46,073 nt of DNA. Source: Oscillospiraceae bacterium (GTDB taxonomy: Bacteria; Bacillota; Clostridia; Oscillospirales; Ruminococcaceae). Position numbers and translations under genes: made by a program. The stretch is taken from NCBI GenBank assembly GCA_017483465.1, contig JAFUWN010000042.1:1-46073 (forward strand), written 5' to 3'. Shown one piece after another: positions 1 through 46,073 of this stretch (the first letter of the stretch is position 1; each line of letters opens with the position of its first letter). Below the pieces are notes generated by a model, which worked only from the letters and a program-made list of their open reading frames with translations, made no database searches and had not been told where the DNA came from.

Positions 1-135
1 AACCGTCCCACGGTGTTACGTCAGTTTGCCTTATGGCATTCTAAAGAGGTAGGAGATTTTAAAAAATCGTTTTCACTACCGGATAGTGACAAGCCCCCAC
101 TTCTTAGCGAACGAAGTGAGCGTAAGTGGGGGTAG
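1..135 (+). CDS. 3' end of an open frame of unknown identity, possibly transposon-encoded (partial)
   Basis: Frame 1 is open from the window edge to a TAG at 133-135, giving 44 residues rich in Lys and Ser. The last residues are encoded by the hairpin of the presumed transposon end. I do not recognise the sequence. It could be the C-terminus of a TnpB or IscB type protein read into the transposon end, or simply a chance open frame. It runs opposite to uvrC and overlaps its last codons. Confidence 0.25.
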   Translation, partial: NRPTVLRQFALWHSKEVGDFKKSFSLPDSDKPPLLSERSERKWG

Positions 136-1986: not shown

Positions 1987-2127
1987 GAAAATTATTCAGA
2001 CTGCGTTTGTCAATAGACCAGCGACAGGGTTACAAAGAGGCGGCTTTTAAGCCTCTTTGTTCCTGTTGCTATTGACAGGGACAATAGTTTTCTATATTAT
2101 ATATAGCCATCTGTCCCTCTGTAGCAA
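1987..2127 (+). repeat. Structured interspersed repeat, copy A
   Basis: Matches 45964-46073 at 108 of 110 positions (1987-2096) and is a divergent relative of 2163-2289. It has two nested dyads. The first is a long imperfect hairpin at 2008-2077: outer arms TGTCAATAG and CTATTGACA, middle arms GCGACAGG (2021-2028) and CCTGTTGC (2062-2069), inner arms ACAAAGAGGC and GCCTCTTTGT. The second joins AGGGACA (2077-2083) to TGTCCCT (2112-2118) around CTATAT-TAT-ATATAG. A promoter-like sequence lies between the two. It sits immediately upstream of uvrC, in the 404 bp gene-free spacer 1955-2358. Confidence 0.9.
2072..2100 (+). promoter_or_regulatory. Predicted promoter inside repeat copy A
   Basis: TTGACA at 2072-2077, a 17 bp spacer and TATTAT at 2095-2100 on the plus strand match a housekeeping sigma promoter with one mismatch. 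It points away from uvrC, towards repeat copy B. The -10 lies inside the CTATAT/ATATAG palindrome and between the arms of the second dyad, so a protein or a structure could mask it. No coding sequence follows. Confidence 0.5.
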
Positions 2128-2162
2128 ATTACTACTAACTGTTTTTTGATTCTGAATCCGGA

Positions 2163-2289
2163 TTTGTCAAAACAGATCAGACAGATTTACAAAGAGGCGG
2201 CTTTCAAGCCTCTTTGTATCTGTCCTGTTGACTTGCGACAATATTTCTATATATTATATAGCCGCCTGTCGCAATTTCTGTCGCAATAT
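2163..2289 (+). repeat. Structured interspersed repeat, copy B (divergent)
   Basis: Same layout as copy A: TTTGTCAA, the shared core ACAAAGAGGCGGCTTT with its GCCTCTTTGT partner, then GTTGAC and a TATATTATATAG segment. The arms differ but still pair. GACAGAT (2180-2186) pairs with ATCTGTC (2218-2224), replacing the GG/CC of copy A by AT/AT. TTGCGACA (2233-2240) pairs with TGTCGCAA (2267-2274), where copy A has AGGGACA/TGTCCCT. A second TGTCGCAA follows at 2279-2286. These compensated changes point to selection on the paired structure. Confidence 0.8.
2228..2257 (+). promoter_or_regulatory. Predicted promoter inside repeat copy B
   Basis: TTGACT at 2228-2233, an 18 bp spacer and TATTAT at 2252-2257 on the plus strand. 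It is at the equivalent place to the promoter of copy A and again lies within the second dyad. Transcription would start near 2264 and run into the hairpin at 2316-2342. Confidence 0.4.
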
Positions 2290-45908: not shown

Positions 45909-45963
45909 AAGTAAAAACCTCCTTTTAATCACATAAATCAGAATTTAGCAGTTTGACATGAGA

Positions 45964-46073
45964 GAAAATTTTTCAGACTGCGTTTGTCAATAGACCAGCG
46001 ACAGGGTTACAAAGAGGCGGCTTTTAAGCCTCTTTGTTCCTGTTGCTATTGACAGGGACAATATTTTTCTATA
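45964..46073 (+). repeat. Structured interspersed repeat, copy C (cut by window end)
   Basis: Aligns with 1987-2096 at 108 of 110 positions without gaps; the two changes are at 45971 and 46064. It carries the full long hairpin and the TTGACA, and ends just as the -10 segment begins. Like copy A, it sits 5' of a minus-strand gene (55 bp before the ispG start), in the same orientation, at nearly the same distance. Confidence 0.9.

Follow-up and report, generated by a model that had tools for sequence, protein, structure and literature searches.

The repeat that stands twice near the start of the window (the whole stretch of DNA analysed, 46,073 nucleotides, contig C9 of a 2.9-Mb draft genome) is very probably a phage replication origin, predicted here and descended from phage. 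This prediction rests on the covariation of a long hairpin, on the position of the unit after the stop codon of phage primase-helicase genes, and on iterons that track the winged helix of the encoded protein; a repeat of unknown kind is thereby linked to a predicted phage origin. A wider proposal, which is put forward with less than even confidence, is that chromosomes of the Ruminococcus group keep a mobile library of origins from unrelated phage initiator families in short inverted-repeat cassettes, often as tandems of unlike units, which would jointly act as a multivalent decoy immunity that starves phages of initiator.

Units A and B and their family

Units A and B lie between uvrC (gene name assigned by eye) and the next gene and together form one 330-bp insertion (1976 to 2305; all window features are given on the plus strand). 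The insertion was delimited by comparison with six close relatives (G029, G025, G018, G020, G008, and G027), in which the site upstream of uvrC is empty and uvrC and the next gene occur without the element. TTTCTGAA is single at these empty sites, exactly or with one change (it reads TTTCCGAA in two of the six), and is doubled in the window, forming an 8-bp direct repeat with its left copy at 1968 to 1975 and its right copy at 2306 to 2313. The first bases of the insertion, CTCCCATTTAAGAAAA (1976 to 1991), match by pattern the outer end of a cassette found in G008 and G035, and their start coincides exactly with the insertion point given by the empty sites. At the 3′ end of uvrC (window 92 to 134) there is a hairpin-like inverted repeat, cccccacttcttagcgaa...ttcg..gtaagtggggg, possibly a terminator.

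On the plus strand, a unit of this family consists of a long hairpin, an inverted site Y, an AT palindrome (e.g., CTATATATTATATAG), and a direct site that occurs twice (X1 and X2); Y and X1 are as a rule reverse complements of each other. The long hairpin is built from an outer stem (GTCAAT/ATTGAC), a middle stem, and a 10-bp core with a loop like GGCTTTTA. In unit A, covariation and folding place this hairpin at 2007 to 2077, with the outer stem GTCAAT/ATTGAC, the middle stem, and the core at 2032 to 2060. It is followed by Y (AGGGACA, 2077 to 2083), which pairs with X1 (TGTCCCT, 2112 to 2118) and falls into the TGTCCCT iteron class, and by the AT palindrome CTATATTATATATAG (2092 to 2106), a position strongly conserved in the family alignments. 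The hairpin is predicted to be of primase type and the palindrome to be a melting site. The second iteron has been lost in A, and GTAGCAAATTACTAC (2121 to 2135, noted by eye) is probably the leftover of a small hairpin that phage copies such as L104 carry at the stop codon of the primase gene. In unit B, folding and covariation place the long hairpin at 2164 to 2232 (core 2189 to 2217); iteron comparison gives Y (TTGCGACA, 2233 to 2240) and X1 (TGTCGCAA, 2267 to 2274), and the family alignments give the AT palindrome CTATATATTATATAG (2247 to 2261) and X2 (TGTCGCAA, 2279 to 2286). Unit A thus belongs to the TGTCCCT type and unit B to the TGTCGCAA type. No initiator gene adjoins the window copy, which itself lacks the initiator-adjacent layout. 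The dyads that the earlier note had described are present in A (GCGACAGG/CCTGTTGC and AGGGACA/TGTCCCT) and in B (ACAGAT/ATCTGT and TTGCGACA/TGTCGCAA), and its account of B leaves out the second TGTCGCAA.

The two units are not the sole copies, as that note had required for its reading. The own genome has 20 perfect matches to the 29-nt core (none for the reversed control), and a covariance model finds 21 matches there, some of them cut by contig ends. Contigs C1, C6, C9, C26, C95, C99, and C115 start or finish inside copies, so the true copy number is probably higher. In the window, a further unit found by copy search (45983 to 46073) is cut in this way, its other half being probably at the end of contig C26; the inverted-repeat end ATAAATCAGAATTTAG of this copy, identified by end-motif matches, lies at 45933 to 45948 upstream of ispG (gene assigned by eye). 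Eight separate places in the own genome match A at 98–100% identity, and the unit at C82:27650 forms its core stem from other letters (GGTGGCT/AGCCACC). The covariance model matched 14 of 150 genomes (own included), 13 of them in the genus; the weak match in G086 (E 0.007) was taken as probably due to chance. Plasmid and phage DNA collections gave no match for the repeat, and an exact-core scan of a genome-contig collection found nothing. The X types of the 17 complete own-genome units are TGTCGCA (five), TGTCCCT (four), TGCGGCA (three), TGCAACT (two), and three others once each, to which the relatives add TTGCGGTAA and more TTTCCCT.

Both A and B fold better on either strand than all 200 dinucleotide shuffles (z -5.4 to -7.3). 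Covariation was counted in 36 aligned units (35 distinct sequences), in an alignment that was fitted to the structure, so that the counts lean towards it. Pairing holds in 91.5% of cells over the 35 distinct sequences vs 75.0% after shuffling, and changes on both sides of a pair are found in 208 cells (shuffled mean 68.7) and in 23 of the 34 pairs; sliding the partner by one column lowers pairing to 33–39%. The core helix is 98.6% paired, with all 10 pairs changed on both sides, and Y–X1 is 84.4% paired. Further pair types do not rise above shuffles, 298 of 500 of which reach the observed value. The selection on pairing that the earlier note had proposed, with covariation over collected copies as its check, thus holds for the long hairpin. 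Its second dyad is better read as a set of predicted protein-binding sites, because the same letters return in direct orientation, a feature that pairing alone would not require, and because they follow the winged helix. Arms that differ without compensation, which would have weakened the proposal, do occur: 8 of 24 chromosomal units keep fewer than 6 of 7 arm pairs vs 2 of 12 phage units. Paired Y–X1 cells number 77/82 in the phage units vs 135/168 in the chromosomal ones, and paired core cells 118/119 and 235/239 (98.3%), respectively; L102 and the first L015 unit are misaligned by one column in the arm-pair count, so a few of the misses are not real.

The phage locus and the iterons behind its predicted initiator

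The primase-helicase gene is found in 10 of 38 genus genomes. Nine of these loci extend past the stop codon, and in all of them the first repeat of the unit begins 1–25 nt after it; at the tenth locus the contig ends at the stop codon. The iterons of these units flank an AT-rich region, in the order of two direct iterons, palindrome, and one inverted iteron. The unit sits between the primase-helicase gene and a RusA-like gene, the latter being found after it in at least six loci (by PHROG match in L102 and L113, by eye in the others). In G018 the RusA-like gene is followed by genes for a transcription regulator and a terminase small subunit, which marks the locus as a prophage module. Two chromosomal copies of the own genome (L012 and L014) include 3′-terminal coding sequence of the phage gene, judged by eye against the G018 locus (L113), and the chromosomal copies thus derive from phage DNA. 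Members of this phage family come mostly from Bacillota. Next to the C25 copy of the own genome lies what seems to be the remnant of a prophage. At that place (G000:C25, L009), the phage primase gene and the unit abut a truncated radical-SAM-like gene (by eye), and the same left junction is repeated at C99 (L021).

Pfam places PriCT_2 and AAA_25 above the cut-off in all three proteins searched and several HTH families, below the cut-off, at the C terminus; the PHROG family "DNA primase" covers the protein. In a PDB profile search (E up to 0.01) the sole match is RSF1010 RepA (1g8y, E 2.2e-5). An AlphaFold2 model (mean pLDDT 80.9, pTM 0.48) has a RAD51C-XRCC3 chain as its first-ranked fold match and RepA at ranks 2, 3, and 5 (three of the first seven, TM to target 0.69–0.73), the list being filled by RepA-type helicases and RecA-like proteins; the fold search did not resolve the structure of the primase domain. 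Residues 708–741 are modelled as a helix, a second helix (719–728) at the recognition position, and two strands of the wing, with block pLDDT values of 83–87 up to residue 740. In the model, the C terminus is thus a winged helix whose recognition helix would be 719–728.

Relatives of the primase-helicase were collected from viral contigs, where 112 loci were found, 80 were kept, and 79 had a stop codon; together with nine genus loci, 88 were read, and 79 were left after removal of duplicates. Within 330 nt after the stop, 70 of these 79 carry a GC-containing 6-mer at least four times, compared with 6.7% of dinucleotide-block shuffles. The repeats track the winged helix and not the remaining protein: in partial Mantel tests over the 79 loci, iteron similarity follows the HTH given the body (r 0.456, p 0.0005) and does not follow the body given the HTH (r -0.076, p 0.99). 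Some phages (viral contigs L223–L302) have a GC-bounded palindrome, e.g., ACCCCCTAAAGGGGGT, in place of the AT palindrome downstream of the primase-helicase stop, and in these the hairpin reads GTAGTCGTGCG...CGCACGACGAC.

Part of this relation can be read as a protein-DNA code in which one residue of the recognition helix is paired with one base of the iteron. Helices of the form KT[VAI]R followed by N, S, or T go with TTTCCCT in 16 of 16 loci, one of which (L268) has an in-frame stop further up, and KT[VAI]R followed by R goes with TGTCCCT in nine of ten, the tenth (L236) being tabulated as "other." The choice between R and N/S/T thus matches the second iteron base in 25 of the 26 loci of the training set and in 16 of 17 new loci. 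Smaller groups are KT[VA]ER (two loci) and RTVER (one) with TGTCGCA, DT[VA]ER with TTACCGC (two), and KTVES with TTTCGCA (one); the helix was unreadable by pattern in 27 of the 88 rows. On a tree of the protein bodies from 29 chosen rows, the R vs N/S/T state changes nine times, and in all six independent pairs on well-supported branches of these chosen rows the second base follows the residue (sign test p 0.031). The bodies of L130 (from G061, iteron TGTCGCA) and L224 (a viral contig, iteron TTTCGCA) are nearly the same (end branches 0.0055 and 0), and the two loci differ in both the code residue and the base. Bacterial genomes provided a second set, from which 18 of 80 loci were dropped; 29 of the remaining 62 fell under a rule, and 20 of these were predicted rightly (permuted mean 8.5, maximum 16 in 10,000). 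There the two main rules were right in 13/14 and 3/3 cases and RT[VA]RD in 4/5; two further rules failed in their only case (0/1 each), and the RSVRD rule failed in all five, so the code is not general.

These observations suggest an order of events. The winged helix at the C terminus of the primase-helicase would bind the iterons, the AT palindrome would melt, a RepA-like ring would be loaded, and the primase part would start at the long hairpin, as the RepB′ primase of RSF1010 is reported to start at the ssiA hairpin (PMC4434180). Origins of PICIs are described as lying directly 3′ of the initiator gene, with an AT-rich region flanked by iterons, and in PICI/SaPI elements primase and initiator are sometimes fused (PMC6092414).

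A simpler reading would see in the unit an operator only, at which the winged helix binds the repeats to regulate the RusA-like and later genes without any origin function. The location of the unit between the two genes and the overlap of the sites with a promoter-like sequence would fit such a role. However, iterons around an AT palindrome together with a hairpin, 3′ of an initiator, reproduce the layout mapped in PICIs (PMC6092414), and the protein itself carries helicase and primase-type domains, which makes an operator alone improbable. Still less credible, to the point of being nearly dismissed, is a structured regulatory RNA (a leader or sRNA) encoded by phage and host. Its stems are strong on either strand, and a promoter of the TTGACA-16/18-TATATT-like form can be seen by eye in both A and B, where it may have an extra function. 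Against an RNA stand the absence of the -35-like TTGAC from TTACCGCAA-type units, the tracking of a DNA-binding domain by direct-repeat iterons, and the occurrence of units in both orientations relative to the neighbouring genes. Rfam, moreover, gave no match at the gathering score and chance-level matches only at E up to 10, a result that speaks against the RNA reading of the earlier note and agrees with its remark that no named family could be matched.

Inverted-repeat cassettes and their cargo

The left end of the A+B insertion is that of a family of cassettes spread across the genus, whose inverted repeats are of the GATAAATC type. CTCCCATTTAAGAAAA runs on into GATAAATCAGAATTTA, the inverted-repeat end of this family, or into a near copy of it, in three places in G008 and, with one mismatch, in G035. 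With one mismatch allowed, the 16-nt end motif is present in 31 of 38 genus genomes (23 times in G008), and the reversed-pattern control gives one hit across all 38. Four own-genome copies of the unit bear the left-type end (C9:45933, C82, C95, and C115) and five the right end GATTTATC (C26, both ends of C6, C1, and C82); the window copy has the outer left end CTCCCATTTAAGAAAA only, its right side being without GATTTATC. At up to three mismatches, the left-end pattern occurs in the own genome only at copies of the unit (4/4), and the pattern search found no autonomous element with the same left end in this genome. Among nine sites compared, a flanking repeat of fixed length is clear only beside uvrC. 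Units are inserted between genes in both orientations, and upstream of ispG, G029 and G008 have cassettes with other small reading frames in place of the own-genome copy. A putative cassette enzyme would move the A+B pair. The suggestion that the dyads are DNA hairpins used in transposition is accordingly less favoured, as the hairpin sits in a predicted replication origin and mobility is tracked by the separate inverted-repeat ends.

Cassettes of the genus-wide type (GATAAATCRGAATTYA ... TRAATTCYGATTTATC) mostly hold one small gene each (L203, L207, L209–L219, L410, L423, L428, L432, and others), encoding small membrane proteins, a GNAT-like protein (by eye), and unknowns; no transposase was seen inside them. 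The same 80-residue cassette gene occurs at different sites in G008:C9 and G026:C169. Some units seem to occupy the same host site in two species, as judged by eye: between spoIIIAE- and spoIIIAF-like genes (L116, L120 in G025:C84, and L121 in G061:C206) and beside a DUF4340-like gene (L103 in G025:C112 and L106 in G061:C111). The own-genome C108 unit stands between spoIIIAA- and spoIIIAB-like genes (names by eye).

Units also occur in tandem, and adjacent units differ in iteron type in all eight tandems, five in the own genome (C9, C29, C37, C82, and C107) and three in relatives (G010:C19, whose second unit is without a hairpin of its own, G021:C24, and G025:C84). Simple duplication of one unit is ruled out by this difference. 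Unlike neighbours alone do not show selection, since random pairing would also often join unlike units (about 0.8 for each tandem, from the type counts).

The cargo of the cassettes was examined in 57 regions, 39 of which have a pair of ends. Ten of the 39 (L204, L206, L407, L411, L412, L414, L415, L416, L419, and L429) show, by eye, an AT core with iterons on either side and lack a convincing gene, and 29 are not origin-like; the same origin-like layout appears in 3 of the 18 unpaired regions (L205, L405, and L406). A 7-mer with at least three G/C repeated at least three times is found in seven of the ten origin-like cassettes, that of L415 being a mere run of C, vs one of the other 29. Their iteron types include GTGACGG, GGGAGGGTT, ACCCGTCAT, ATGCAGGGT, GGGGAGGGG, GGTGGAGG, and TTTGACA, and in L204, L406, and L412 two modules of different type stand in tandem. 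A scan of viral contigs for GTGACGG gave six matches and no clear origin; this cassette type is origin-like from its layout only.

Several of these modules resemble sequences that follow D5-type primase genes. In viral contigs L385, L386, and L388, ATGCAGGGT modules lie about 20–220 nt after such genes. Thirteen contigs contain ACCCTGCATACCCTGCAT, seven of which carry it within frames of at least 250 codons and were set aside; the iteron-AT-iteron layout is seen in five ACCCTGCATACCCTGCAT contigs (L383 and L388 alike, L385 and L390 alike, and L386) and not clearly in L384. Within the genus, Pox_D5 has 22 matches in 15 of 38 genomes. The D5-type gene of G004 is followed by ACCCGTCAT iterons, as in cassette L411, those of G012 and G033 by GGTGGAAGG/CCTCCACC, close to L405, and those of G036, G033, and G016 by a core, ATGTGAGCAT-CTCTATATGC, that is common to L407 and L419, with different iterons. 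The remaining D5-type loci of the 22 either lack sequence after the stop or show repeats that are unclear or of another kind, and gave no cassette match; the own-genome locus (C72) has no repeats matching a cassette. Since D5-type genes are followed by modules resembling those of cassettes, the same cassette type is a carrier of origin-like modules of two unrelated initiator families.

Possible roles in the host and related systems

The most likely role on the host side, though itself a tentative one, is that of a decoy: a chromosomal copy would bind the initiator of the matching phage and slow its replication, and tandems of different iteron types would cover several phages. The several iteron specificities in the own genome speak for this role, as do the unlike neighbours in all eight tandems of the family and in three tandems of D5-type cassettes. 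G008, a 91% complete genome without a hit for either initiator family, nonetheless holds at least eight origin-type loci (L204, L205, L405, L406, L407, L411, L412, and L469). Against a decoy count the loss of the second iteron in unit A and the mismatched arms of the 8 chromosomal units, which fit decay as well as re-specialisation, and the low dosage, with at most five complete units per iteron type among the 17 aligned own-genome units, compared with 20–40 copies per cell of the lambda decoy plasmid (PMC4488673). The failure of a minimal PLE replicon to interfere with its phage also speaks against this role (PMC7145576).

Two other accounts of the chromosomal copies have to be weighed. The units could be hitchhikers, i.e., a miniature inverted-repeat element with phage origins that is replicated locally by a passing phage and spreads without benefit to the host. 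The eight near-identical matches to A, the inverted-repeat ends with alternative cargo at the same site, and the insertion between genes in both orientations would all be expected of such an element, which is nevertheless somewhat doubtful, because the 29 of 39 paired cassettes without an origin-like module indicate that an origin is not needed for cassette spread, and because hitchhiking does not predict unlike iteron types in neighbouring units. The units could also be neutral debris, phage origin fragments scattered by recombination or repair and decaying without function. The iteron lost in A, the mismatched arms, and the phage remnant at C25 point this way, whereas the core hairpin still paired in 98.3% of its cells in chromosomal units, the shared ends and empty sites that mark discrete insertions, and the sharing of one cassette type by origin-like modules from two unrelated families do not, and debris is rated unlikely. 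If the decoy role is true, phage immunity would here reside in bare DNA sites, a kind of defence that searches based on genes would miss, and the old idea of phage-encoded resistance by extra origins would become testable as a natural chromosomal trait. In open-licence papers, a chromosomal phage-origin library or an origin-decoy element was not found beyond the lambda decoy and Per work.

Among known replicons, RSF1010 encodes its iteron-binding protein, RepC, separately; here, by contrast, a single protein seems to combine the primase-type, helicase, and iteron-binding domains, with no separate RepC. Common to both are the hexameric helicase domain of RepA type and the model of hairpin priming, which is borrowed from that replicon (PMC4434180). 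The arrangement of an origin 3′ of the initiator, with two iteron sets around an AT-rich region, is shared with the rep-ori of PICI/SaPI elements; compared with these, the present units are distinguished by their PriCT_2/AAA_25 phages, the long covarying hairpin, and chromosomal copies far from initiator genes (PMC6092414). The origin cassettes have in common with MITEs that they are short, multi-copy, bounded by inverted repeats, and free of a transposase inside, but their cargo varies between individual small genes and origin-like modules, the latter from two or more initiator families.

The predicted decoy role resembles that of Per and of lambda decoys, in which a phage is blocked by additional copies of its own origin (PMC6356513, PMC4488673). 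Per is a phage-encoded resistance in which a 302-bp origin of Sfi21 is reported to arrest the phage in S. thermophilus (PMC6356513). Extra copies of the lambda origin are likewise reported to arrest lambda in E. coli by competing for the initiator, and origin variants that still bind O also protect; these decoys consist of one origin on a plasmid with 20–40 copies per cell, whereas here about 20 chromosomal units of several iteron types are distributed in mobile cassettes (PMC4488673). PLE of Vibrio cholerae has its own iteron origin, and its replication is described as needed for interference with phage DNA replication, while the minimal PLE replicon is reported not to interfere with its phage (PMC7145576). 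PLE is, however, a phage parasite that encodes an initiator and other genes, and the origin cassettes described here encode no initiator (PMC7145576).
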